From the NCBI RefSeq assembly GCF_015207255.1, contig NZ_JADEXG010000010.1:1-64000 (forward strand): a stretch of 64,000 nt of DNA, written 5' to 3'. A model generated the notes under the pieces. That model was not told the DNA's origin and made no database searches. It saw nothing but the letters and a program-made list of their open reading frames with translations. Source of the stretch: Vasconcelosia minhoensis LEGE 07310 (lineage in GTDB: Bacteria; Cyanobacteriota; Cyanobacteriia; Phormidesmidales; Phormidesmidaceae). The position numbers and the translations under genes were made by a program. Of this stretch, positions 7,405-46,080 are shown piece by piece. Position 1 is the stretch's first letter. The number at the start of each line of letters is the position of its first letter.

Positions 7405-9093
7405 ATGGCCCAGTTGGCAACTTCCGAGTCGGTGGTGATCGGTACGGTCAAAGGACCGGGGGAAAACGGCAATCAGTATGTGTTCATCACGGCGAATAAC
7501 CGCCAGGTGAAGATTGGCGAATTTGTCTTTTATGACGTGACTGCGCCCGACAGCCCATCCCAAACGCTGCAAATTTTAGGTAAAATCTCCGCCCGCCGCC
7601 TGACCGAACATCTGCCCGACCGAATTTTTGCCGATACTGAAATTAGCCCAGACGCGATCGCGGCCCTAGTCGGCTTTGTCCATCCCAGCCCCGAGCTCTA
7701 CGAAGTCACCGTCGATGTGATCGGCTATTTTCACCCGGCTCTGGGTTTTATCAACCCCCGCCTCACCCCCGACCCCGGCGCTAAGGTCTATATTACCGAC
7801 GATGACACCCTGCGCCAGGTGGTGAATAAGCGGCAGCCCGGCGAGGTGGGCTCGGCCCGGGTGGGTTCGCTGCTGCTGCGGCCAGGCGGCGCGGTGCCGG
7901 TGGCGCTGGATGTGAAAGAGCTGGTCAGTACGCACATGGCGATTTTGGCCGGCACCGGCTCGGGCAAGAGCTACACGGCTGGGGTGCTGATCGAGGAATT
8001 CTTACAGCCTTACAATCGGGCCGCGGTGCTGATTTTTGACCCCCATGGCGAATACGGTACGCTGGCTGAAATGCGGGGCCACCCGGCCTTTGCTACCGCC
8101 GATGGCTATGCTCCCAAGGTGAAAATTCTCACCCCCGACGACATCTGCATCCGGATTTCTTCCCTCGACTATTACGACGTGATGACCCTGCTGCCGGAGA
8201 TGAGCGATCGCCAGCAGTCGATTCTAAATAAGGCATTTACCCTCCTGAAGCGACATCGCTCCGGCGAGTATCGCTGGAACGTCGACGATCTGATTGCCGC
8301 GGTGAATGAGGCCGACCTCTCCGTCGATGACGAGGGCAATGAAAAAATCGGCTCCTCCGCCCCGGCCATCACCTGGAAGCTAGAGCGCTTTGCCCGCTCG
8401 CCCTACTTCCACCAGATGAATCATTTAGCGCCGCGCGACCTGTTTGAACCAGGGCAGGTGACGGTGCTACAAATGAACGAAATTAGCCAGGAAGAGCAGC
8501 AGGTGATCTGCGCGGCGGTGCTGCGCCAGAGCTATCAGGCCCGGATGAATACGGCCAAGGAAAAGCTGACTGAAGCCGATGAAAACTATCTGCCCTATCC
8601 GATTTTTACCCTAATTGAAGAAGCCCATCGCTTTTGCCCGGCTCACGAACCGGCTCGCTGTAAAGCAATCCTGCGCACCATCCTGAGCGAGGGTCGCAAG
8701 TTTGGCCTGGGGGTAGGGCTGATTACCCAGCGCCCCGGCAAGCTGGACTCGGACGTGCTCTCCCAGTGCATGAGCCAGTTTCTGATGCGGATTGTCAATC
8801 CGGTCGATCAGGAAAGCCTGAAGTACGGCGTCGAAGCGGCGGGGCGCGACCTGCTGAAGGAGCTACCCGCCCTGACCAAGGGGCAGGTGATTATTTCTGG
8901 GGCCTGCGTAAATACGCCGGTGCTCTGCCAGGTGCGCCAGCGGCTCACCCGCCACGGCGGCGAAACCCTGAACGCGCCGACCGCTTGGCAGGACTATTTT
9001 CAGCAGCACCGGCAGCGATCGCAGCAATTGCGGCAGGCCCCGGTGGCAGCGCGATCGCGGCCCGAGACCGTGGGCGGCCTTAGTATTGAGTGA
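7405..9093 (+). CDS. HerA-type hexameric ATPase (DUF87)
   Basis: 562 residues. The N-terminal ~100 residues form the beta-barrel HAS domain (VVIGTVKGPG...GEFVFYDV). The Walker A motif GTGSGKS is at residues 183-189, and Walker B is FTLIEEAHRF near residue 400. The C-terminal part VGLITQRPGKL...QCMSQFLMRI is typical of HerA. Archaeal HerA is a DNA translocase that works with NurA nuclease in end resection; bacterial homologues also occur in defence systems. No NurA or other nuclease lies beside this gene: the next gene is convergent and unrelated. So DNA translocation is inferred from fold, and the partner is unknown. Confidence 0.87.
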   Translation: MAQLATSESVVIGTVKGPGENGNQYVFITANNRQVKIGEFVFYDVTAPDSPSQTLQILGKISARRLTEHLPDRIFADTEISPDAIAALVGFVHPSPELYEVTVDVIGYFHPALGFINPRLTPDPGAKVYITDDDTLRQVVNKRQPGEVGSARVGSLLLRPGGAVPVALDVKELVSTHMAILAGTGSGKSYTAGVLIEEFLQPYNRAAVLIFDPHGEYGTLAEMRGHPAFATADGYAPKVKILTPDDICIRISSLDYYDVMTLLPEMSDRQQSILNKAFTLLKRHRSGEYRWNVDDLIAAVNEADLSVDDEGNEKIGSSAPAITWKLERFARSPYFHQMNHLAPRDLFEPGQVTVLQMNEISQEEQQVICAAVLRQSYQARMNTAKEKLTEADENYLPYPIFTLIEEAHRFCPAHEPARCKAILRTILSEGRKFGLGVGLITQRPGKLDSDVLSQCMSQFLMRIVNPVDQESLKYGVEAAGRDLLKELPALTKGQVIISGACVNTPVLCQVRQRLTRHGGETLNAPTAWQDYFQQHRQRSQQLRQAPVAARSRPETVGGLSIE

Positions 9094-9131
9094 GCATTGA
9101 GCGAGGCCTGGGCGAGGTTAAAGCGCAACGG

Positions 9132-10049
9132 CTAGAGCTTGGACTGCTTGAGGGCTTCCTGGCTGTTGGCTCGGTAGACTTTCACCCGGTCCTGGGCGAT
9201 AGCGTAGCGATCGCTCTCAGGGGTGACTTCGGCCATTAGGTCAGAGGCGCGCTGCCAGCTCGCAGCTAGCTCCAACCACTCAGCCGCCGTAGTAGCCGTC
9301 TTGCCGCGAGCAGAAGTCGCCTCGGCCAGGCGTACCGCGTCGGCGAAGGGGTCTGCGGGCGGCGCGGTCTCAGCTGGGGCTGGCGGCGCCGGAGGAGTAG
9401 CGGCAGCAGGTTCGGACGGCGCCACTGTCGTTGCGAAGGTTTCGGGCGCGGCAGCCGGTTCTGTCCCAGGTTCCGGGGGGCGTTCGGGCAAGGCTACGGG
9501 CGCGACCGGTGCCTCGGTGACTTGGGTAGGCCCGCTGCGGCCTGCCCAAACTGCGGCTAGCAGCAGAGCCGCTGCCGTGGTGCCAGCTATGCCAACCATC
9601 AGCGGCGATGGTCGGCCCGGCTGGACTGGCTGCCGCTGGCCCAGGCTGACCTTAGACGGAGGGGCTTTTGAAGGTGGCTGTAAGCGCCGGAGCAGGTTGG
9701 GCTGCTTCAGGGTGATGATCTCAGACCACAGCAAAAAGCGCTCGGGGTCACGGCTAATTTCCTCCAGCCAGAGCAGCTGATGCTCGCGCACAATGCGGCT
9801 GTTGACGTTGACTTTGCGGATGCGGTGCGGCGCGATCGCCTCTAAAATCTGCTGCACTCGCTCTACAACGAAGGACTTTTCGAGCTGCTCAGGTGTCTTG
9901 GCTTCGCATAGCAGTTGCAAAATGCCATCTGAAAACATCGCCCGAGTACGAATGCCGCTGTCGGCCAGCCGCTCGTTGAGAATTTGAATAATGGCCGCAA
10001 CGCTTCCCTGACGGGCTTGCCCGAGAATATCATTGGCGGGATTAGTCAT
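9132..10049 (-). CDS. Conserved cyanobacterial single-pass membrane protein, function unknown
   Basis: 305 residues in three parts. Residues 1-125 are a soluble alpha/beta domain (ILGQARQGSVAAIIQILNERL opens it) seen in several cyanobacterial proteins of unknown function. A basic linker leads to one membrane segment (about residues 148-168, MVGIAGTTAAALLLAAVW). The outer part has a long Pro/Ala/Glu spacer (about 175-240), then a C-terminal helical domain ending SQEALKQSKL. The pattern suggests a cytosolic domain anchored to a membrane with a flexible arm on the other side. An AGAGG site precedes the ATG. Confidence 0.75.
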   Translation of the reverse strand: MTNPANDILGQARQGSVAAIIQILNERLADSGIRTRAMFSDGILQLLCEAKTPEQLEKSFVVERVQQILEAIAPHRIRKVNVNSRIVREHQLLWLEEISRDPERFLLWSEIITLKQPNLLRRLQPPSKAPPSKVSLGQRQPVQPGRPSPLMVGIAGTTAAALLLAAVWAGRSGPTQVTEAPVAPVALPERPPEPGTEPAAAPETFATTVAPSEPAAATPPAPPAPAETAPPADPFADAVRLAEATSARGKTATTAAEWLELAASWQRASDLMAEVTPESDRYAIAQDRVKVYRANSQEALKQSKL

Positions 10050-10248
10050 ATAAAAACCTCTGCAAGTCAGTCAAGTGAAACGATCTAGGTACCTGTCAGT
10101 TGATGATTCAGTTGAACAGCAGGGGGCAGTTTCTCGACGGTCTCGACAGGAGCAGTGAGACGGATATTGGAACAGGGCGGTTTCGTGCCTCTATTCTTAT
10201 AAAGGAAAATTGAGAATAAAGGAAATGTGAGACGGGGTAAAGCAAGCG

Positions 10249-10944
10249 CTATATAAGATTATGCCGGGCCAATGGCTGCAAGTGCGAACAATCGTTAAAC
10301 CGGCGGATGATCTGGGCTTCTGGGTTAAAGCGGTTTTCGCTGTCAGTCAACGTTCTGCCTGGTTCTGCGAGCCAGAACTCAAACAGGGCGGTATTGGGAA
10401 TGGTTAATTTCCAGGTGAGATCGCAGCCCAGCAGCACCGCAATAATCTGCTGTAGGATGCCCCCGTGGGAAATGGCCCAAACTGTCTCGCCCGGCTGGTG
10501 GGTCTGCAAAATCTGCCTTACCCACTTTGCCGCTCGGGTGTGGGCGGCGCTGAGCGTCTCGGCCTGAGGCACCGGCAGCCAGTCTAGCGATGCCATCAGC
10601 CGCTGGCATAAATCCGGATGGCGATCCATCGCTTCGGCCCAGGTCAGGCCCTGAAAGATCCCCGCATGCAGTTCCTGTAGCTGGGCCTGCTGATAAACCG
10701 GGCAGTCGTGCCCGGCTGAGCGCCAGGGCTGGGCCAGGGCCTCTAGCGTCTGCACTGCCCGCAGCAGGGGACTGGTATAAAAACAGGCGGGCGGAGCCTG
10801 CTGCTGATAAAGGACCTGACTTAGCCGCTGTGCCTGCTGCTGTCCCAGGGGCGTTAGGGCGGTTGAGCTTTGTCCCTCCATCCGAGTCGCCGCGTTACCG
10901 GCTGACTGGGCATGGCGCAGCAGCAGCAGTTTCAAATAGGTCAT
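10249..10944 (-). CDS. Histidine phosphatase family protein (phosphoglycerate mutase-like)
   Basis: 231 residues with the phospho-His motif LLRHAQSAGN at residues 8-17 (RH at 10-11), TPLGQQQAQRL, the Glu-containing middle, and the second catalytic His in ISHGGIL near residue 160. Members range from cofactor-dependent phosphoglycerate mutase to broad phosphatases and sugar-phosphate phosphatases; the short size and the RHAQS variant fit a phosphatase better than the glycolytic mutase. The start is divergent from ndhM, 78 bp away. Confidence 0.85.
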   Translation of the reverse strand: MTYLKLLLLRHAQSAGNAATRMEGQSSTALTPLGQQQAQRLSQVLYQQQAPPACFYTSPLLRAVQTLEALAQPWRSAGHDCPVYQQAQLQELHAGIFQGLTWAEAMDRHPDLCQRLMASLDWLPVPQAETLSAAHTRAAKWVRQILQTHQPGETVWAISHGGILQQIIAVLLGCDLTWKLTIPNTALFEFWLAEPGRTLTDSENRFNPEAQIIRRFNDCSHLQPLARHNLI

Positions 10945-11022
10945 CGGTTCGTCAGCAATTCCGCTAGCAGAGCGTTTACAATAGGTCGCAGAGCCTTTAA
11001 GTTTACTGGTGAGCGACTGCTG

Positions 11023-11370
11023 ATGCTGCTAAAATCCACGACCCGTCATGTCCATATCTTTGCAGCAGAGGTTAAAGATAACGAGCTGATCCCCAGTGAC
11101 CAGGTGCTAACCCTCGACATTGACCCAGACAACGAGCTGAACTGGAGCGATGAAGCGCGGCAAAAGGTCAACGCTGAGTTTGACCGGCTGGTCGGCAACG
11201 CTAAGGGCGAAGCCCTGACCGACTACAACCTGCGTCGGATTGGGTCCGATTTAGAACATTTTGTCCGAGGGCTGCTCCAGTCTGGCGAGATCAGCTACAA
11301 CCTGAAAAGCCGTGTCTTAAACTACAGCCTGGGACTGCCCCGGGTTACCTCCGATCAGCCTACCGCTTAA
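11023..11370 (+). CDS. ndhM: NAD(P)H-quinone oxidoreductase subunit M
   Basis: NdhM is a peripheral, oxygenic-photosynthesis-specific subunit of the thylakoid NDH-1 complex that takes electrons from ferredoxin for cyclic flow and respiration. The 115-residue protein starts MLLKSTTRHVHIFAAEV and keeps the family text LDIDPDNELNW, LRRIGSDLEHFVRGLLQ and YNLKSRVLNYSLGLP. ATG 11023 is chosen; the open frame extends upstream to 10912 but that part would overlap the divergent phosphatase gene and has no family match. Confidence 0.95.
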   Translation: MLLKSTTRHVHIFAAEVKDNELIPSDQVLTLDIDPDNELNWSDEARQKVNAEFDRLVGNAKGEALTDYNLRRIGSDLEHFVRGLLQSGEISYNLKSRVLNYSLGLPRVTSDQPTA

Positions 11371-11391
11371 CCGTTTAGCCTATTCTTCCCT

Positions 11392-13719
11392 GTGGGTGAA
11401 GCGTCCGTGATTACCTGCCCCAACCCCAGCTGCCAGGCCGCCAATCCCGAGGATAGGTCTGCCTGCCAGGTCTGCGGGCTGGCGCTGCCGCATCGCTATC
11501 TATGGGGGGTTGGGGCCGGGGTCAGCGGCCTCCATCCGGGTGCTATCCTGAACCGCCGCTACCGGCTGGTCCAGTCCCAAATCTTTCTCGATACCCGGCC
11601 TGGCCAGCCGCCCGAATCTCCCCAGGAGCTGCCGCCGGAGTTGGTCGCCTATCTTCACCTAGCGGCCTATCCGCTGCAGGTGCCCCGCCCCTACGCGGCC
11701 TTCGCGACGGCGGCGGGAGATTGCCTACTGCTGGAGGATAGCGCGATTGCGACGACTGCTAACCCAGTCGCCCTGCTGCCGACGCTAGCCCAGAGCTGGC
11801 TGGACGCGCCACCCCTACGACAGCTCAACTGGCTCTGGCAGATTGCCCAACTCTGGCAGCCGTTTCAGGCTCAGCAGGTGGCGCAGACGCTGTGCCAGCC
11901 CGAGCTACTGCGGGTAGACGGCTCGACCCTACGGCTGCGGCAGCTTCAGGCTGGCGCAATGCCGTCGCTAGGCCAGCTGGGCCAGTCCTGGCTGGACTTA
12001 GCAAAAGCCGCTCAACCCGCGATCGCGCCGTTTCTAAAAGCGCTGATTCAAGGCATGCAGCAGTCCTCGCCAGAGCAGCTCGAACGCCAGCTTCAGCAGG
12101 CCCTGGAGATCTGCGCCCAGGGTCAGAAGATGGTCTATGACCTGGCCGTTTATACCGACCAGGGGCCGTCGCGGCAGCGCAATGAAGACGCCTGTTACCC
12201 CGCTAGCGGTACAGTGCAGCAGCTTGAGGTCTCGCCGCCCGCCCAGCAGTCGCTACTGCTGCTAGTCTGCGACGGCATCGGCGGTCACCAGGGCGGGGAT
12301 GTCGCATCTAAGCTGGCGATCGCAGTCCTGCGGCGGCATCTAGAACCCGTCCTCAGCTCGCTTGCCGCTCCGGCTCACGCCATTGACCTGGTGCAGGCTC
12401 TGGAAGAGGCGATCGCGGCGGCCAATGATGAAATTTCCGCGCAAAACGATCGCTCCCAGCGGCAGGCGCGCGATCGCATGGGCACTACGCTGGTCCTAGC
12501 GTTGGTCCATGGCTCCTACCTCTACCTCGCCCATGTGGGTGACAGCCGCGCCTATCGAATCAGTCACCAAAGCTGTCAACAGGCCACCCTGGACGATGAC
12601 GTGGCGGCCCGAGAGATGCGGCTAGGCTACGGCTTCTATCGTCAGGTCCTCGATCATCCCGGCTCGGGTTCGCTAATCCAGGCGCTAGGAATGGGACCTG
12701 CAACAGCCCTTTATCCAACTGTCCAGCAATTTATCCTAGACGCAGACAGCGTCTTTCTACTCTGCTCCGACGGCCTTAGCGACCATGACCGAATCGAGCA
12801 GTTTTGGCAGCAGGAGCTGCTGCCTGTCGTTGCGGGTCAGCAGACCGCCGCCGCCAGTGCCCGACGGCTGGTGCAGCTGGCCAATCGGTACAACGGCCAC
12901 GACAACGTCACCGTAGGAATTCTCCAGGTGCGAGTCAGGCAGCCCTCGACCCGAGCGGTGCCGGCTTCAGTCGTGGGGAGCAAGGTTCAGATTGACGCTG
13001 ACCCGGCGCTTTTCACTCCGCCCTTGACCGAGCCCGCTGCGGCGACCCAGCCCAGTCTAAAAGCCGAACTCGGGCCTGATTACAGGACCAAGGCGTCTAC
13101 CCGTCGATTTCCCTTGTTGCTGAGCGGATTAGTCCTGTTAGCCATCTTTGGGGTGGCGGGCTGGGTGCTTTGGGGAGCTGGGACCGAGCGGCTAGCTCGC
13201 CAGCTGCCTCAGTCCGATGGTGCTGATCCGCTCGTGGAACCTGGCGCTACTATGCCACCCCCTAGCCTGGAGCGCGACTCCTTTGTTCGGATCCAGCAGT
13301 CTACGGCTGCCGCAGAAGGGTCATCGCCGCCGCTACTAACCCTCTATGACAGCTTAGAGGCGGTGTCTCAGTCAGCGTCTCAGTCCGCCGCCGTCCCGGC
13401 CCAAGGCACCCTACCTGCTGGCAGTATTGTTCAGATCCTGCATAAACCGTCCGGTGCTGACCAGCAGCGCTGGGTACGAATCAAAGTCTGCTCAGTTTCT
13501 ACAGATACCTCACTGGCCGCGCCGCCGATGGAATCTGGGCCGACCCCGCTACCGACCCCAGCCACGCCAGCGACGAATCCGGCAGCCTCACCGACTCCAG
13601 CTGACTCAGCAGTTTTTCAGCCAGGGGCCGAAGGCTGGATTCAGGAGTCCCAGGTCGCCCCCATCGCCGTCAAGGTGGAGGGTCTGCCGCGGTCGCAGCA
13701 AGGTATCTGCCGTCGCTAG
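11392..13719 (+). CDS. PP2C-type protein phosphatase with N-terminal zinc ribbon and C-terminal SH3-like domain
   Basis: 775 residues. An N-terminal zinc ribbon (CPNPSCQAANPEDRSACQVCG) is followed by ~190 residues that loosely resemble a protein-kinase layout without catalytic motifs (LNRRYRLVQSQ opens it). The PP2C domain is about residues 250-510 and has its metal ligands: RNEDAC, VCDGIGGHQGGD, MGTTLV, AHVGDSRAYRI, CSDGLSD and GHDNVTV. A membrane segment is near residues 575-597, then a low-complexity linker and an SH3-like part (AGSIVQILHKP...GWIQESQVAP). It would remove phosphate from Ser/Thr of partner proteins. GTG 11392 is used; GTG 11407 is equally possible. The CHAT-FHA gene follows within 60 bp. 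Confidence 0.85.
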   Translation: MGEASVITCPNPSCQAANPEDRSACQVCGLALPHRYLWGVGAGVSGLHPGAILNRRYRLVQSQIFLDTRPGQPPESPQELPPELVAYLHLAAYPLQVPRPYAAFATAAGDCLLLEDSAIATTANPVALLPTLAQSWLDAPPLRQLNWLWQIAQLWQPFQAQQVAQTLCQPELLRVDGSTLRLRQLQAGAMPSLGQLGQSWLDLAKAAQPAIAPFLKALIQGMQQSSPEQLERQLQQALEICAQGQKMVYDLAVYTDQGPSRQRNEDACYPASGTVQQLEVSPPAQQSLLLLVCDGIGGHQGGDVASKLAIAVLRRHLEPVLSSLAAPAHAIDLVQALEEAIAAANDEISAQNDRSQRQARDRMGTTLVLALVHGSYLYLAHVGDSRAYRISHQSCQQATLDDDVAAREMRLGYGFYRQVLDHPGSGSLIQALGMGPATALYPTVQQFILDADSVFLLCSDGLSDHDRIEQFWQQELLPVVAGQQTAAASARRLVQLANRYNGHDNVTVGILQVRVRQPSTRAVPASVVGSKVQIDADPALFTPPLTEPAAATQPSLKAELGPDYRTKASTRRFPLLLSGLVLLAIFGVAGWVLWGAGTERLARQLPQSDGADPLVEPGATMPPPSLERDSFVRIQQSTAAAEGSSPPLLTLYDSLEAVSQSASQSAAVPAQGTLPAGSIVQILHKPSGADQQRWVRIKVCSVSTDTSLAAPPMESGPTPLPTPATPATNPAASPTPADSAVFQPGAEGWIQESQVAPIAVKVEGLPRSQQGICRR

Positions 13720-13775
13720 CTTTGCCTGCTAATCCGCTTCCTAGCGCCCGTCATCCCTTCCTGTCAAGCAATGCG

Positions 13776-15413
13776 ATGTCTGATTCTCAGCCTCTCAATC
13801 TGTGGTTAGCGGTCGATCGGCTGACCGCAGCCGACCCAGAGCATTACGCCATCTGGGTATTGAATTCGCCCTATCCCGGCGGTCATGTCCACCACGACTG
13901 TATCTGGAGCCATGCCCTTACCCAGGCTTGGCAAAACTGGCAGTCGATGTTTTCTCTGCGGGGCCTGCCAGAGGTGCCCCATATTCCTTCAGCCTATGTC
14001 CCCCAGTTGATCCAAACAGAGCTGGAGGGGGGCGCCGTAGAACAGGCTCAGGCGACTAGCTACAGCAGCCGCCTGATGCAGCACCTGGGCGTCAACCTGT
14101 GGCAGTGGCTGTTTGACGGCCCGGTCCAGAGCAGCCTTGCTCAGAGCCAGGGGATGGCGGTCGGACAGGATGTGCCGCTGCGGCTGCGGCTGGAGATTCG
14201 TGACCCGGACTTAACTGCCCTGCCCTGGGAAATCATGCAGCCCCAGCCGGGCCGTCAGTCGCTGTCGCTGAGCCAGCAGACGCTGTTTAGCCGCACCACC
14301 AGCGACGTTGACCCGCTAGCGGACCGAGGTCTGGATAAAGCCTTGAAAATTTTACTGGTGCTGGGTCAGGACGGGGGCCGGATGGGCAATGAGATCCAGG
14401 CCGAGCTGCAGCTGGAGCAGGAGGCGGCACTACTGAAGCAAATTTTAGAGCACAGCAGCGACCTGAGCCCGCGGCCCAGCGCTCGGCGGCAGGTCGATGT
14501 CTTGCTAGAGCCAAGCTCGGCTGAGCTGATTGAACAGTTAGAAAAGGGCGCATACAATGTTTTTTTCTACGCGGGTCACGGAGTTTCAGCACCCGATGGC
14601 GGGCTGCTATTTCTTTCAGAGGCTACGCTGAGCGGGACCGAACTGGCCCAGGTTCTGAACCGTTGCCAGGTCAAACTGGCGGTTTTTAATACCTGCTGGG
14701 GAGCTCAGCCCGACCGCAGCGGTCAGCAGGCGATTCCCCGCAGCAGTCTGGCTGAGGTCCTGCTGCACCATGGGATACCTGCGGTATTGGCGATGCGTGA
14801 TTCGATTGCTGATGAAGAGGCAATTAGTTTTATTCAGGTGTTGGCTCAGAAGCTCGCCGAGCGTAAAGCAGTCGATGAGGCAGTCGCGATCGCGCGTCAG
14901 CACCTGCTCACGCTCTACCATTTCAATCAGCCGGCCTGGACCCTGCCCGTGCTCTATATGCATCCCGATTTTGACGGTATCTTGCTCTATCCCATTCCGA
15001 CTGATATCACTTACCTGCCTGGAGATACGGGCACCAGCGTGCGATCTCGAAAAGCCTTGGCATCGCTACGCGATGCCAACAATCCGCAGCTAGCCTGGCC
15101 GATTGTTGGCGGTCTGATGCGGGTTGGGCGACTGCCCGACGACAATGATTTGGTGATTGCTGAACCCTGGGTTTCTAGCCGACATGCCGAAATTTTTTAC
15201 CGTCGGGTGGCTGCACAGTCGGGAATTGGAGGCACAGAAATGGTTTACTTTCTGCGGGACATCTCTCGCTACGGTACATTTTATCTAGATGGCCGCAGCT
15301 GGCGGCAGGTACACCGGCAGGAAATCACCCTATATCCGGGAATTCAGCTCCGCTTCGGCAGTCCTGAGGGACAGCTATTAGAATTTGTCCTGGAATCGCC
15401 GTCACTCTCTTAG
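13776..15413 (+). CDS. CHAT (caspase-like) peptidase domain fused to a C-terminal FHA domain
   Basis: 545 residues. The CHAT domain (about residues 150-410) has the caspase-type dyad: His268 in FYAGHGVS and Cys307 in FNTCWGAQ. It also has the usual N-terminal text LRLRLEIRDPDLTALPWE. The FHA domain (about 445-540) has GGLMRVGR, WVSSRHAEIF and a YGTFYLDG strand, the phospho-threonine-binding layout. ATG 13776 is chosen over TTG 13722 because it begins the recognisable domain text. It lies 56 bp behind a PP2C phosphatase on the same strand. CHAT-TPR proteins are common in cyanobacteria; a direct CHAT-FHA fusion suggests recruitment or gating by phosphorylated partners (inference). Confidence 0.85.
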   Translation: MSDSQPLNLWLAVDRLTAADPEHYAIWVLNSPYPGGHVHHDCIWSHALTQAWQNWQSMFSLRGLPEVPHIPSAYVPQLIQTELEGGAVEQAQATSYSSRLMQHLGVNLWQWLFDGPVQSSLAQSQGMAVGQDVPLRLRLEIRDPDLTALPWEIMQPQPGRQSLSLSQQTLFSRTTSDVDPLADRGLDKALKILLVLGQDGGRMGNEIQAELQLEQEAALLKQILEHSSDLSPRPSARRQVDVLLEPSSAELIEQLEKGAYNVFFYAGHGVSAPDGGLLFLSEATLSGTELAQVLNRCQVKLAVFNTCWGAQPDRSGQQAIPRSSLAEVLLHHGIPAVLAMRDSIADEEAISFIQVLAQKLAERKAVDEAVAIARQHLLTLYHFNQPAWTLPVLYMHPDFDGILLYPIPTDITYLPGDTGTSVRSRKALASLRDANNPQLAWPIVGGLMRVGRLPDDNDLVIAEPWVSSRHAEIFYRRVAAQSGIGGTEMVYFLRDISRYGTFYLDGRSWRQVHRQEITLYPGIQLRFGSPEGQLLEFVLESPSLS

Positions 15414-15540
15414 GACAAGCCCATCAGTACATCTACACAATTTGATAGATAGTTTGGGTTTACCCCGGAACCGGTTCAGTCAGGACTGTATTCCTCCCCT
15501 ATCAGCCTTTATAATTTCCCCTAACGCAATGTGCAAAACC

Positions 15541-16149
15541 ATGGCCGATCCCTCGTCTCGTTCTGATGCTGCCCAGACCGCCGCTGAGTTAGCCTTGCTC
15601 CAGCGACTGCTCGATGCTGCGGGAGAATCTGCGGGAGAATATCCCTGGCAGCCCGCTGACCCCGCTGCCTGGTCCTACTGGCAGCAGGCTGAGGCAGCGG
15701 GTGAATCCTTGGATATTTCGGCTGCTGAAGCCACCCAGGGATGGCAGGCGCTTTCACACCAGCTAGATCAGCAATGGGCAAGTCAAGTGTCGCTGCCGCA
15801 GCAGCTTGAGCAAAAGTTTGCGGGTCGGCTCTCGCCCGCCCTATCTCAGCAAATCAGCGCCCGGGCCATAGAGTTAGTTGCCAGTGGCCGCCCGCTCGCC
15901 GATCAGATGATTGCCTGTGTCCAAGAGTTGCTCTCTGGCTGGGCCGAGGCCGACTTGCGCGTGATGGCCCGCCCCCTGGCCTACGCGATGCGGGATGGCA
16001 GGCGTGACGGCAATCAGGATGAAACGTTAGAGCTAGCAATCCGCTCAGTCCGCCAGGCCCAGTGGGCTGACCTATCGCCGATGGAGCAGGCCAGATTAGG
16101 ACTGGCAGCCGCTCGCTATGCTTTGGACCAGCTCCGCTTAAGCTCTTAG
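15541..16149 (+). CDS. Hypothetical protein downstream of the CHAT-FHA gene
   Basis: A 202-residue, mostly helical, Ala/Gln-rich protein: MADPSSRSDAAQTAAELALL, then LSQQISARAIELVASGRPLADQMIACVQELL, ending RLGLAAARYALDQLRLSS. No membrane segment or known domain is visible. I recall similar cyanobacterial proteins but no function. ATG 15541 is used; ATG 15529 in frame is possible and the open frame itself extends into the CHAT gene. It is the last gene of the co-directional run starting at ndhM, and may belong functionally with the phosphatase and CHAT proteins. Confidence 0.7.
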   Translation: MADPSSRSDAAQTAAELALLQRLLDAAGESAGEYPWQPADPAAWSYWQQAEAAGESLDISAAEATQGWQALSHQLDQQWASQVSLPQQLEQKFAGRLSPALSQQISARAIELVASGRPLADQMIACVQELLSGWAEADLRVMARPLAYAMRDGRRDGNQDETLELAIRSVRQAQWADLSPMEQARLGLAAARYALDQLRLSS

Positions 16150-16328
16150 GCAATACTTTGAAAGTTGGAAAGCCCAGGTATGATATAGACAATGAGTGGT
16201 AGCATTTGTCATCCTCGATGCTGTCTGCACTTAAGCAAAACATGAATCAGATAGAATCCTTTTCCCGTATTGATATTGAAAATAGCGGCATGGATGTTCT
16301 TCTCTTTGAATCATGACCCTGTGCCTGC

Positions 16329-17630
16329 TTAAAGCTGCTGGTTGACCTGCTCAATTTGTTCGGTAAAGTAGTCCTGTCGGTAGCTGAGCCGATTGGCCAA
16401 CACTAGCCCTCTTTCGAACGCCTGAAGGGCTTCAAACGAATTGCCTTGGGAGCGTTGCAGCTGGCCGATGGCGTCGTAGGCATTCATCTCACCATAGGTG
16501 TTGTAGGACTGCTGCTCGGCTTTGACCAGCAGGTTGTAGGCCAGCAGGGCCTCTTCTGTCTGGCCCTGAGTCGCGTAAAGCTGGCCCAGGTCTTGCAGAA
16601 CCTGGCTAGCAAAGCTGAACTGCTGGAGCTGCTGGGCCGCTACATAGGCGGCTCGGTAATAGGCGATCGCGTCATTGGGCCGGTTCAGGTCGCGGTAGTT
16701 GCGGGCGATCGCGAGTTCCAGGGGCGGGTATTGCGCTATCCGCCCCTGGCGCTGGTAGACCGCTAGCAGGTCGGTCTGGGCGCGAATCGCGTTGGTCAGC
16801 GAGTCGCCCTGCTGATAGCTGTAAACCAGCTGAATCAGATAAAACTCCTGCTGCTCTAGGCTGTTTTGAATTCGGGCATCGGCCAGCAGGCGGCGGTAGA
16901 CCTCTGCCGCGTCGGCAAACCGGAACCAATCTAGATGAATCTGAGCCAGAATATTGAGCCGCCGCCGCTGGGCCAGGCCGTCGCCCCGGTCGGCGGCCAG
17001 CTGGGCCAGCTGCTCGTAGGCCGCGATCGCGTCATCCACGGCGCGTAGCACCCGAAAGGTCTCGGCTACGGTCTCTAGCTGAGCTTCGTTCAGCGGCGGA
17101 GCCAGGACATCTTCGTCCTCATCTATTTCATTTCTATCCTCATCCGCTCCAGGCTGAGCCGCAGTTACAATTTCTCGCAGCCGCAGCGTTAGCAGCTGGA
17201 CTTCGACCGGGCGCTCCTGCTGCCAGGCAATTGGCCCGACCCGGCTAATGGCGGCCAGCTCCGCCGACCGGCCCAGGGCTCGCCGCAGCCGCAGCTCTCG
17301 TCGCCAGATCTCAAATGCCGCATCGACCTGGCCTACAGCCAAACGCTGCTGGGCTTCTCGGTTGAGCTCGTCGAGCGCTTGGGAAAGCCGCGATCGCTCT
17401 AACGGACTGAGCGGTCGCTCGACGACTGGTGACGGTAGCAGCGGGTCGCGAGGCGTTTCGGTCAGCGGATCAGATAAAAAGTCCTGCCGCAGCTGGGGGT
17501 CGATACTCTGGGCCAAGCTGGGCTGAGCCAGGGTCAGCAGCAGGGCAGCCTGACAGGCAATCGCCTGCAAAGGTCTCAGTACCGGCCGCAGTCTGACGTC
17601 TAAATGCCGCAAACGGAAATGTATGTTCAT
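16329..17630 (-). CDS. Exported TPR-repeat protein
   Basis: 433 residues. An N-terminal signal peptide (hydrophobic AIACQAALLLTLAQPSLAQS, cleavage likely after the LAQ-type site) is followed by a proline-rich linker and at least five helix-turn-helix units in the C-terminal half that read as tetratricopeptide repeats (for example AIAYYRAAYVAAQQL and EALLAYNLLVKAEQQS). TPR arrays bind proteins, so a periplasmic or thylakoid-lumen scaffold is likely. ATG 17630 is chosen because the signal peptide starts there; an ATG 33 bases upstream adds 11 residues without signal character. Confidence 0.78.
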   Translation of the reverse strand: MNIHFRLRHLDVRLRPVLRPLQAIACQAALLLTLAQPSLAQSIDPQLRQDFLSDPLTETPRDPLLPSPVVERPLSPLERSRLSQALDELNREAQQRLAVGQVDAAFEIWRRELRLRRALGRSAELAAISRVGPIAWQQERPVEVQLLTLRLREIVTAAQPGADEDRNEIDEDEDVLAPPLNEAQLETVAETFRVLRAVDDAIAAYEQLAQLAADRGDGLAQRRRLNILAQIHLDWFRFADAAEVYRRLLADARIQNSLEQQEFYLIQLVYSYQQGDSLTNAIRAQTDLLAVYQRQGRIAQYPPLELAIARNYRDLNRPNDAIAYYRAAYVAAQQLQQFSFASQVLQDLGQLYATQGQTEEALLAYNLLVKAEQQSYNTYGEMNAYDAIGQLQRSQGNSFEALQAFERGLVLANRLSYRQDYFTEQIEQVNQQL

Positions 17631-17777
17631 TCGCAGAACTTCACAGTTGGTCCCATCGCCCATGACCAGGGCAGGATTGCTGTACCCTGGAGATCCGGTA
17701 TAACTCCTGTTTAAGTCTGGCCTATCAGTTCAGGTGCCAGCCGCAGCCCCACTGAAAACCATCCTAGCAAACTCCCC

Positions 17778-18737
17778 ATGACCGCAAACGTCGCTATGCG
17801 TACCGTCCGAATTGGCTCTCGCAAGAGCCAGCTCGCCCTAGTTCAGACTCACTGGGTGCAGGCAGAGCTGCAAAAACAGTTTCCCCACCTCAAGTTTGAG
17901 GTCAAAACGATGGAAACTCAGGGCGACAAGATTCTCAACGTGTCCCTTTCTAAGATTGGCGACAAGGGACTGTTTACGCAAGAGCTGGAAAGCGACATGC
18001 TCGACGGCACGATTGATTTTGCCGTTCACTCGCTTAAAGATCTGCCCACTCGCCTGCCCGAGGGGCTAATGCTGGGCTGCGTCACCGAGCGCGAAGACCC
18101 AGCCGATGCGCTCGTCCTGAATGCTAAACATCAAGGTCAGCAAATCGATACGCTGCCTGAGAATGCGGTAATCGGCACCTCGTCTCTGCGACGACTGGCC
18201 CAGCTGCGGCATCATTTCCCCAACTTTGAGTTTAAAGATATTCGCGGTAATCTCAATACCCGGCTGCGCAAGCTCGACGAGGGCGACTATGACGCGATTA
18301 TTCTGGCCGTAGCGGGATTGCGGCGGTTGGAGATGAGCGATCGCATCGACCAGATTCTGCCGCCCGAGATTTCACTCCACGCCGTTGGGCAGGGCGCACT
18401 GGGAATTGAGTGTCGCAGCGATGATAGCGAAATCCTCTCAATCGTGAAAGCGCTGGAGCATTTACCTACGGCCTGCCGCTGCCAGGCAGAGCGAGCCTTC
18501 TTGCGAGAGCTTGAGGGCGGCTGTCAGGTGCCGATCGGCGTCAATACGATCCTCGTTGACGACCAGCTGACGCTGACGGGCATCGTGGCGAGTTTGGACG
18601 GGCAGCGCCTGATTAAGGACAACATTCAGGGCGCTCCCGCTGAGGCCGAGGCTCTCGGTACGACCCTGGCTAAGCGGGCCAAAGCTGCCGGAGCACAGGG
18701 AATTTTGGATGAGATTACGGCAGCTAGCCGAGCTTAG
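17778..18737 (+). CDS. hemC: Hydroxymethylbilane synthase (porphobilinogen deaminase)
   Basis: HemC joins four porphobilinogen units into hydroxymethylbilane, the step before the tetrapyrrole ring closes for chlorophyll, haem and bilins. The N-terminus [14 protein letters not shown], the substrate-binding RRLAQL, and the dipyrromethane-cofactor Cys249 in [10 protein letters not shown] are all present. 319 residues is normal. ATG 17778 is used; ATG 17796 (MRTVRIG) is an alternative. A small coiled-coil protein follows on the same strand. Confidence 0.96.
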
Positions 18738-27856: not shown

Positions 27857-28906
27857 ATGCGGGAATATTTGTTTGTTGTGACGAATCCTGAAACTCCTTC
27901 ACAGTTAGAATCCTATCTGCTGTTTAATACGGCTCTAGGGCAGCGACGCCTGCCGCTGACGGCAAGTAGCTGCTGGACGGTGGGGCGAAATGATGACAAT
28001 AATCTGGTACTGTCTGACCAGTGGATTTCACGCAACCACGCGATGATTCAGAGCATGGAGTCGGGTGAGTTTTATCTGATTGATTTGGGTAGCCGGAATG
28101 GCTCTTTTATCAACGGGCGTCGAGTCACCGTGCCGGTCCCGCTTCACAGCGGCGACATGCTAACCTTTGGTCAGACCGAGCTTCAGTTTTTCTGCTCTTC
28201 AGCCGATGCTGCCGCGGCTGACAGCACCGACAGCGACTATAGCTTTACGGCAACGGCCGCCATCCATGTCCGCAGGCTGGTTTCAACCGCGGTCATCGAC
28301 CTCTGTGACTTTACCGCGATGACCCAGTGTCTCAACGAAAAAGATCTATCAGAAGCGGTCGGTAGCTGGTTTCGGCAGGCGGGGGAAGTGCTCAGGCGCT
28401 ACGGCGGCTGGGTTGACCGCTACACCGGCAGCGCCATCACCGCCGTATGGATTCACGGTACACAAGACGTTCCCCGGGAGGAGAGCCTGCGGACGATTCG
28501 GGCCGTTTGCGACCTACAGCAGGTGATGAATGATCTGAACCAGCGATACGCGCTGCCGATGCGCCTGCGAATTGGCGTTGGCCTCGATCAGGGCTATGCC
28601 ATGGTGGGGGATATGGAAAGCGGCCTGAGGCCTGAATACGCGGTCTTGGGTGATACCATCGACGATACGCGCCAATATGAGCTAGCAACCCAGCATTTGG
28701 GTCTAGATGTCGCAGTCAGCAGTAAGCTATACCAGCAGCTGGGCCAGCTGGGCATGAACGAGCAAACCTTTAAACAGTATTCGGTTCAGCTCAAGGGCCA
28801 GAGCTATTCGCTGGCCACATATGCCTGTGCCTTTTCAGATCTGGGGCGGTTTTTGAGCGCCTATGAAGATAACCAGGTCGATTTGGTTTCGAGCCAGTCC
28901 TACTAA
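27857..28906 (+). CDS. FHA domain fused to a degenerate class III adenylate/guanylate cyclase domain
   Basis: 349 residues. The FHA domain (about 20-110) has CWTVGRNDDNNLVLSD, WISRNHAMI and LGSRNGSFING, all good phosphothreonine-binding features. The cyclase homology domain (about 135-310) has the first metal Asp148 (VIDLCDFT). The second metal Asp is replaced by Ser192 (RYTGSAITAVW instead of GD). The catalytic Asn is Asp269 in GDTIDDTR, and the transition-state Arg is one position off. Production of cAMP or cGMP is therefore doubtful; it may bind nucleotide or act as a scaffold. FHA could link it to Ser/Thr kinases. Confidence 0.85.
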   Translation: MREYLFVVTNPETPSQLESYLLFNTALGQRRLPLTASSCWTVGRNDDNNLVLSDQWISRNHAMIQSMESGEFYLIDLGSRNGSFINGRRVTVPVPLHSGDMLTFGQTELQFFCSSADAAAADSTDSDYSFTATAAIHVRRLVSTAVIDLCDFTAMTQCLNEKDLSEAVGSWFRQAGEVLRRYGGWVDRYTGSAITAVWIHGTQDVPREESLRTIRAVCDLQQVMNDLNQRYALPMRLRIGVGLDQGYAMVGDMESGLRPEYAVLGDTIDDTRQYELATQHLGLDVAVSSKLYQQLGQLGMNEQTFKQYSVQLKGQSYSLATYACAFSDLGRFLSAYEDNQVDLVSSQSY

Positions 28907-44089: not shown

Positions 44090-44401
44090 CGGGACAGAAG
44101 CTCAGGTTAGGCATCATAGTTAAGTCACCTTTGAGTTAAGTAACCTTTGGGCAGACGAACGACCATCTAGGCTCGACAAGACGATGAGAGCACGATTAGA
44201 TGATAGTACATCTGTATTTTAATCCTCCGGAAACGGTTTACGATCTGAGAATGTTATAGATAGCCCCTATAGGACTTACTTCAGCCATTGATTTTTGGAG
44301 CGCCCTGCCAGCAGCTGCGCCTTTACAATTTGACCTTTGCAGGACACCTTTACAATAAGGTGCCATATTCTTTCCTCACTCACTACCCCTCATCAGCGTC
44401 T
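44090..44401. other. recA upstream region
   Basis: About 312 bases without a gene between the divergent xseA and recA. It holds a possible SOS box (44205-44218) and two copies of CCTTTACAAT near 44320 and 44348. No clean -35/-10 pair with normal spacing was found. Confidence 0.4.
44205..44218 (+). promoter_or_regulatory. Possible LexA (SOS) box upstream of recA
   Basis: AGTACATCTGTATT matches the cyanobacterial LexA-type box RGTACNNNDGTWCB (recalled) at all but one informative position (T instead of C near the end). It lies about 184 bp before the recA ATG. Weak evidence: one mismatch and no identified promoter. Confidence 0.3.
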
Positions 44402-45442
44402 ATGGCTAAACTTCCAACTGACAAGGCCGAGCGACAAAAAGCCCTGGGCCTGGTGCTCAGCCAGATTGAGCGCAATTTTGGCAAGGGCACCATTATGCGG
44501 CTGGGAGACGCCAGCCGGCTGAAGGTTGAAACGATCTCCACTGGCGCTCTTACGCTTGACCTAGCCCTCAGCGGCGGCTTGCCCAAGGGGCGCGTGATTG
44601 AAATCTATGGTCCTGAGAGTTCGGGTAAGACAACGCTAGCGCTACACGCCATTGCTGAGGTTCAGCGGCAGGGTGGGATCGCGGCCTTCGTCGATGCAGA
44701 GCATGCGCTCGACCCGATCTATGCTGCCGCCCTCGGGATCGATACTGAAAACCTGCTGATTTCTCAGCCTGATACCGGCGAAACCGCTCTCGAAATTGTC
44801 GATCAGCTCATTCGCTCGGCCGCAGTGGAGATTATTGTGATCGACTCGGTCGCGGCGCTGGTGCCACGAGCCGAAATTGAAGGCGAAATGGGAGACACTC
44901 ACGTGGGGCTCCAGGCTCGATTGATGAGCCAAGCCCTGCGCAAAATTACCGGCAGCATTGGCAAGTCAGGCTGTACCGTCGTTTTTCTCAATCAGCTGCG
45001 GCTCAAGATTGGTGTGACCTACGGTAATCCTGAAACCACAACCGGTGGCAATGCGCTTAAATTCTACGCCTCTGTACGCTTGGATGTGCGGCGGATTCAG
45101 ACTCTAAAACGGGGAAATGAGGAGTTTGGGATTCGGGTTAAGGTCAAAGTCGCTAAGAATAAGGTCGCGCCTCCGTTTCGCCTGGCCGAGTTTGACATTA
45201 TCTTCGGTCAGGGGATTTCTAGACTAGGTTGCATTATTGATCTGGCTGAGCAAACGGGTGTCGTCCTTCGTCAAGGGGCCTGGTATAGCTATGGTGGGGA
45301 AAACATCAGCCAGGGCCGAGATAACGCTATCCAGTATTTAGGCGAATGCCCACAGCTGGCCCATCAGCTGCAGCAAGAAATCTGGCAGCGGCTCCAGCCA
45401 GCATCAGAGACTGCTGCTGAAACGTCTAGTCCCATAACCTAG
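44402..45442 (+). CDS. recA: Recombinase RecA
   Basis: ATP-dependent strand-exchange protein and coprotease for LexA. 346 residues: [20 protein letters not shown], Walker [10 protein letters not shown] near residues 66-74, [32 protein letters not shown] (Walker B), the L2 loop [37 protein letters not shown] region, and a short acidic/Ala tail. ATG 44402 is chosen over the upstream 44288 start, which has no family text. Its stop overlaps the convergent FHA gene (CTAG at 45439-45442). Confidence 0.97.
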
Positions 45443-46080
45443 TCAGGCCGTCTAGCTTCGGGCTGAGTCGGCGTAGAATCAGCTCCGTAGGGGAGCTCTG
45501 CGATCGCACTCAGTGCGGTTTGACTCAAACTATTGCAGTGGCCCAATGTGACTGCTGCTTGAGGATCGTAGATGAAAAAGCTAAAGGTAAGGCCGCCTAG
45601 CCGAACCCGGTCACCGTCCCGCAGCTTTGAAAATCGCGCTATCCGACTGCCGTTGACATATGTCCCATTTGTACTTTCCAGGTCAAAGAGGACAAATCCC
45701 TGCTGCGGCTGATACTGAACCACAGCGTGACAGCGTGACAGCCGCTTATCTGGAAAGACTAGGACGGATTGCCGCGGATCGCGACCAATGCTCCAAATCG
45801 ACTGTGGCTGCATAAATGCCTGCGACTGGCCCGTCGGCCCGTTACTGACTAAGTACGCGCCGTTTTGAGTGATTACGCCTTGGGCATAGGGGGCGACAGC
45901 CGGACCGGATGGCGCAGATAGGTCTGCTTCCTCAGCCCGGAGCAGCTCATCCAGAAAATCGCGATCGCGCTCGTAGAGTTTTGAGAAAATTTGAAATAAT
46001 TCAAGTCGCTCCCGTAGCTTTTGCTCTTTAGAGTCTGGCAGAGCAGCTGCATAGGAAGCTAGAGCGCTTGGGTCGAGCAT
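45439..46080 (-). CDS. FHA domain protein
   Basis: 213 residues. The first ~55 residues are helical. The FHA domain lies at about 90-175: [27 protein letters not shown] and [11 protein letters not shown], containing Gly, Arg, Ser and His that bind phosphothreonine. A low-complexity tail follows. It could be a reader of Ser/Thr kinase signalling; the partner is unknown. Its tail-to-tail arrangement with recA, sharing the stop region, is likely positional rather than functional. Confidence 0.85.

Follow-up and report, generated by a model that had tools for sequence, protein, structure and literature searches.

In the threonine-phosphorylation pathway PpkA/PppA/Fha of Pseudomonas type VI secretion, the gene of a PP2C phosphatase adjoins that of an FHA protein. 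A CHAT protease with a partner of its own is found in Craspase of type III-E CRISPR, in which Csx29 cleaves Csx30 of the same locus, once on activation (PMC10028731). Among cyanobacteria, HetF (Anabaena alr3546) is the precedent of a CHAT putative protease that controls division and development; its function is abolished by mutation of the active site (PMC8406250), and it could degrade PatU3 (PMC12288457).

The locus described here occupies 11392-16149 of the window (the whole stretch of DNA analysed, 64,000 nucleotides from Vasconcelosia minhoensis LEGE 07310) and encodes a PP2C phosphatase (PP2C), a protein with a CHAT and an FHA domain (CHAT-FHA) and a helical protein designated U. It shares with the type VI secretion pathway a PP2C encoded beside an FHA protein, but differs from it in that no kinase lies in the cluster, the carrier of the FHA domain is a peptidase and secretion genes are absent. 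With Craspase it shares a CHAT protease and a dedicated partner from the same locus; Craspase, however, is RNA-activated through Cas7-11 and has neither an FHA domain nor a phosphatase, and neither a CRISPR effector nor a TPR-CHAT protein was found at the locus or in the neighbourhoods compared. No similarity of U to a described family was detected. HetF, for its part, contains transmembrane and TPR regions but lacks the FHA domain that CHAT-FHA carries. No paper combining a CHAT domain with an FHA (forkhead-associated) domain in cyanobacteria was found in the open-access library searched; as far as that library goes, the gene set is undescribed, in agreement with a preliminary description of this DNA that knew of no system with such a layout.

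CHAT-FHA forms a second, distinct CHAT branch beside HetF; roughly one in four of the sampled species has it, and its partner belongs to no known family. If its FHA domain is functional, this small group of genes would connect bacterial Ser/Thr phosphorylation with regulated proteolysis.

Organization of the locus

The genes of the conserved order are as follows.

10912-11370, + strand: ndhM (NDH-1 subunit M), Pfam NdhM 2.4e-50
11392-13719, + strand: PP2C phosphatase of 775 aa, GTG 11407 being a possible start, orthologue clade 99/97
13776-15413, + strand: CHAT-FHA protein, 545 aa, Pfam CHAT and FHA matches
15541-16149, + strand: U, 202 aa, all-helical, ATG 15541, AF2 pLDDT 85.5

All three open reading frames of the preliminary description were found on the same strand. 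For PP2C, GTG 11407 is a likelier start than 11392, because the orthologues begin at the motif M(I)xCPNPxC. The ATG of CHAT-FHA (13776) follows the PP2C stop after 56 bases, within the 60 bp given earlier, and ndhM, the first gene of the order and absent from the preliminary description, ends 21 bases before the PP2C gene on the same strand. No terminator-like site was seen between the genes in a promoter and terminator scan that was uninformative overall. Among the eight genes scanned at 7405-17663 there was no kinase match, and at least 19 Ser/Thr kinases are encoded outside the module in the host genome, which agrees with the earlier statement that the kinase would be encoded elsewhere.

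Within the family of the window, the genes belong to a longer syntenic block at 7405-18737, which consists of a HerA-like ATPase, a 305-aa gene (- strand), a histidine phosphatase (- strand), ndhM, PP2C, CHAT-FHA, U, a TPR protein (- strand) and the gene 17778-18737, the last being read as hemC from its sequence.

Linkage and co-occurrence across cyanobacteria

Linkage was counted over 80 named cyanobacterial loci, with 73 testable cases for PP2C, 76 for U and 69 for both. In the named genomes, CHAT-FHA had PP2C immediately before it in 61/73 cases and U immediately after it in 67/76; both neighbours were present together at 54/69 loci. The linkage on which the preliminary description had made its module depend was therefore mainly borne out. 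At the locus L197 of Laspinema palackyanum D2a, U stands directly upstream of CHAT-FHA, the order being changed and the adjacency kept. The linkage carries less weight within the window's own family, since the whole block from HerA to hemC is syntenic there; in other families the trio often stays together despite changed flanks (G042, G049, G052, G058, G105, G111, G107, G133, G212, G235, G224 and G065).

The strongest result of the analysis, and a new one, is the co-occurrence of CHAT-FHA and U. Among 244 genomes of the phylum, CHAT-FHA was present in 61 and U in 63; 60 had both, 180 had neither, one had CHAT-FHA alone and three had U alone. U was directly downstream in 47 of the 60 genomes with both genes, and in the remaining 13 the genes were apart, so that linkage by itself does not explain the co-occurrence and U is likely a dedicated partner of CHAT-FHA. 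The Fisher p of 3e-52 for this co-occurrence takes no account of phylogeny and should not be read as a true probability. The two genes also vary together within genus g49, in which G249 has both and G102 and G126 have neither. As for the genomes with U alone (G062, G164 and G245), G164 keeps a 74-residue fragment of CHAT-FHA and G062 a remnant, and these two look like recent losses of CHAT-FHA because the remnants persist. The remnant of G062 (L257, G062:C16:56144-56350) has seven stop codons and lies between intact PP2C and U.

U is the tightest partner of CHAT-FHA, while PP2C orthologues also occur without it. The PP2C orthologues form a clade of their own (99/97), which includes the genes of G050 and G053; both genomes lack CHAT-FHA and U, and G055 conversely has CHAT-FHA with PP2C only as a paralogue. 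On these grounds PP2C is a frequent neighbour and not an obligate partner. Mirror-tree correlation, as partial r given NdhM, was 0.62 for CHAT-U and 0.54 for CHAT-PP2C and did not discriminate between them. With linkage, residue conservation and co-occurrence holding across the phylum, the PP2C/CHAT-FHA/U arrangement is beyond chance.

The CHAT-FHA protein

The following features were located in CHAT-FHA.

13776-14084, + strand: N-terminal region of residues 1-103, in which PGGxxHxD is conserved (alignment; Gly36 117/119, Asp41 113/119)
14085-14924, + strand: CHAT peptidase domain, residues 104-383, Pfam CHAT 8.6e-19
14577-14579, + strand: codon of the putative catalytic His268, His in 119/119
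14694-14696, + strand: codon of the putative catalytic Cys307, Cys in 119/119
15120-15359, + strand: FHA domain, residues 449-528, Pfam FHA 7.5e-9, with Gly451-Arg452, Ser467 and His470 present and Tyr499 in place of the canonical Asn

Orthologues with 52-73% identity were present in about 50 of 59 genomes. The CHAT match lies above the curated cut-off of Pfam PF12770 (68.5 vs 24 bits), and the dyad His268/Cys307, reported as intact in the preliminary description, is invariant across 119 distinct CHAT-FHA sequences. The protein is a predicted active cysteine peptidase of the HetF-related CHAT group. HetF is its nearest relative by sequence (32-44% identity over residues about 90-410), and in the CHAT tree the two are sister clades with full support and long stems; both coexist in many genomes. 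Orthology to HetF was considered and rejected, given the NCBIfam NF045509 score of 159 vs 1200 bits and the separate 100/100 clades.

The C-terminal FHA domain was confirmed by its Pfam match. Gly-Arg, Ser-x-x-His and Asn-Gly are the motifs described for phosphothreonine binding by FHA domains (PMC1262709); the window protein has the first two and lacks the third. Over the 119 sequences, Gly451 is kept in 118, Arg452 in 104, Ser467 in 118 and His470 in 116, and the Asn of the Asn-Gly motif is found in 11, most of the others (101) having Tyr or Phe there. In 15/119, spread over several lineages, a Ser, Cys, Met, Phe or Lys stands in place of the Arg; these lineages keep the CHAT dyad and mostly also U and PP2C. 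Phosphopeptide binding is therefore plausible in most members and doubtful in some, judging from these residues. The conservation that had been expected of both domains thus held for the CHAT dyad and only in part for the FHA domain.

The PP2C phosphatase

The features of PP2C are given below.

11416-11475, + strand: N-terminal zinc ribbon, Cys9/14/25/28 (Cys in 80 or 81/92 orthologues; DZR/Zn_Ribbon matches in family members)
11497-12117, + strand: predicted degenerate protein-kinase fold without HRD/DFG (AF2 and Foldseek)
12145-12930, + strand: PP2C catalytic domain, metal-site Asp294/Gly295, Asp460, Asp504/Asn505
13114-13173, + strand: one membrane span at residues 575-594, with a hydropathy of 2.5 across 19 residues

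The multi-domain architecture proposed earlier (zinc ribbon, kinase-like remnant, phosphatase, membrane span) was recovered except for its SH3-like tail. The phosphatase domain matched Pfam PP2C_2 with E=8.1e-12, and its metal-site residues are kept in 92/92 sequences, from which the enzyme looks active. No kinase homology of the N-terminus was detected by sequence, including no Pfam Pkinase match, and the likeness was revealed only by the fold search. The AF2 model of the first 252 residues had a pLDDT of 94.8, and all 50 PDB matches listed by Foldseek were kinase domains; the best had an E of 7.8e-4 at prob 1.0, the similarity being remote with a TM of about 0.4. Residues 164-166 and 182-184, at the catalytic-loop and activation-loop positions, are not HRD or DFG in the 92 sequences. 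As the kinase fold is matched and these motifs are absent, the N-terminus is confidently predicted to be a pseudokinase fold behind the zinc ribbon.

The membrane span comes after the phosphatase domain, and the tail past it, up to 13716, is variable and probably extracytoplasmic; no family was matched by it. This tail (13174-13716) is Pro-rich, and most orthologues keep one Cys in a 'VC' and one near the C-terminus, with a disulfide outside the cytoplasm being possible.

The PP2C domain aligns with the model of the zinc-ribbon PP2C family PRK14559 (NCBIfam NF011149), but the protein misses its cut-off (264.8 vs 374 bits), falls in a separate clade and has the membrane span and tail in addition. 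A paralogous PP2C of the zinc-ribbon type in the same genome, G000:C4:105486-107132, lies in a clade separate from that of the module and possibly belongs to PRK14559. HltA (PMC9430166) was also considered as the module's PP2C and rejected, being a different PP2C of the GAF type.

Protein U

Two regions were distinguished in U.

15640-15654, + strand: YPWxP motif, residues 34-38, in a low-confidence linker (pLDDT about 60)
15793-16143, + strand: globular helical C-terminal domain with ARP...W..LS..EQAR motifs (pLDDT above 90 over most)

The third protein was helical and of no assignable function in the preliminary description, and structure prediction led to the same picture. No Pfam, NCBIfam or PADLOC family was matched; Pfam and NCBIfam searches over 27 members gave scattered matches at chance level. 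Against the PDB, the best match of the sequence was a designed helical bundle, at E 0.0037, all others being weaker, and the fold found nothing below E 0.6 in the PDB and viral models by Foldseek. Over 102 sequences, the YPWxP motif is kept at Tyr34 in 98, Pro35 in 96, Trp36 in 96 and Pro38 in 83, and Asp138, Arg144, Trp175 and Ser179 of the globular domain are each kept in at least 100. A conserved motif in a poorly modelled linker is the pattern expected for a docking or cleavage site, which YPWxP may represent.

Proposed mechanism and alternatives

The gene set is best read as a vertically inherited cyanobacterial signalling module and not as a defence island. In the mechanism proposed here, a Ser/Thr kinase encoded elsewhere would phosphorylate a protein, and the FHA domain would place the CHAT-FHA protease on it. 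CHAT-FHA would cut U, with the YPWxP linker as the docking or cutting region, and the N-terminal helix of U would be separated from the globular C-terminal domain. The zinc ribbon and pseudokinase of PP2C would act as the input, and the membrane-anchored PP2C would remove the phosphate and reset the protease. U is most likely the substrate by analogy, since Csx29 cleaves Csx30 and HetF could degrade PatU3, and its co-occurrence with CHAT-FHA turns this into a concretely testable question. From the FHA domain and PP2C it would seem that the place or time of protease action is set by phosphorylation; such gating is plausible from the residues kept, and PP2C is the probable reset. In short, the best reading is a CHAT protease that either cleaves U or is held by it. 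The gene order, the conserved catalytic residues and the co-occurrence of CHAT-FHA and U, also where they are unlinked, are observed, and the pseudokinase fold is a confident prediction; peptidase activity, the role of U as substrate, recruitment by phosphorylation and that of PP2C as eraser are inferred.

The explanation as a whole, with U cleaved by a CHAT protease that is recruited through FHA by phosphorylation and reset by a membrane PP2C, is held tentatively, as a possibility somewhat short of probable. Counted for it were the invariant CHAT dyad, the PP2C metal residues, the linkage, the co-occurrence, the near-invariant FHA Ser and His and the trio kept despite changed flanks; counted against it were the FHA Asn and Arg losses, PP2C without CHAT-FHA, the presence in G055 of the paralogous PP2C only, the persistence of U in G062, G164 and G245 and co-occurrence counts uncorrected for phylogeny. 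The fuller relay, in which kinases would write threonine phosphate, FHA would bring a caspase-like protease, U would be cut and a pseudokinase-regulated membrane PP2C would reset the system, is rather unlikely. The preliminary description had suggested a phosphorylation-gated peptidase with its own eraser. The conserved co-directional module, the intact dyad, an active-looking PP2C and the kinases elsewhere in the genome stand from this suggestion; the gating stays at the level of a plausible reading, with the FHA Arg, Ser and His mostly kept but Asn in only 11/119, and the eraser is the weaker part, being linked to CHAT-FHA but present in G050 and G053 without CHAT-FHA and U.

U might instead hold CHAT-FHA as its inhibitor, chaperone or regulatory subunit, with the substrate elsewhere. 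Co-occurrence and adjacency fit a stoichiometric partner equally well, and the residues of U with the highest conservation sit in the globular domain; the intact U of three genomes without intact CHAT-FHA would be odd for a pure inhibitor, although these may be recent losses, and the described CHAT precedents favour a substrate from the same locus. This alternative is somewhat unlikely. It is likewise unlikely that only CHAT-FHA and U form the functional unit, with FHA now mainly a docking module and PP2C and ndhM adjoining by inherited order only. In favour of such an arrangement, about 90% of the sequences lack the FHA Asn and 13% the Arg, against an invariant CHAT dyad, the PP2C orthologue is broader in range than CHAT-FHA, and the block from HerA to hemC is wholly syntenic within the family; yet PP2C still adjoins CHAT-FHA where other families have changed flanks, and Ser467 and His470 are nearly invariant.

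A module that modulates photosynthetic electron flow via NDH-1 would account for ndhM upstream of 50/52 testable PP2C genes on the same strand. It is very unlikely, considering that the gaps reach 1.5 kb, that G042, G049 and G052 have an intact trio but no adjacent ndhM, and that CHAT-FHA is not general to cyanobacteria, unlike ndhM. Anti-phage defence or programmed death is more improbable still. CHAT proteases do occur in defence systems, and CHAT-FHA gave a weak PADLOC SAVED_CHAT match (2.1e-4, 18 bits), but the neighbourhood is of a housekeeping kind, the distribution is broad and conserved with a fixed gene order, the set holds no CRISPR or other defence gene, and the score of the nearby HerA-like ATPase falls well short of the NCBIfam cut-offs for defence HerA. 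A defence system was accordingly rejected, the PADLOC match being its sole hint.

Other FHA, CHAT and kinase genes

The whole genome from which the window comes (G000) has 15 CHAT, 14 FHA and 19 above-cut-off Pkinase matches. Two more FHA proteins are encoded in the window, at 27857-28906 and 45439-46080, with no kinase among the neighbours scanned around them; the gene at 45439-46080 is convergent with recA (44288-45442).
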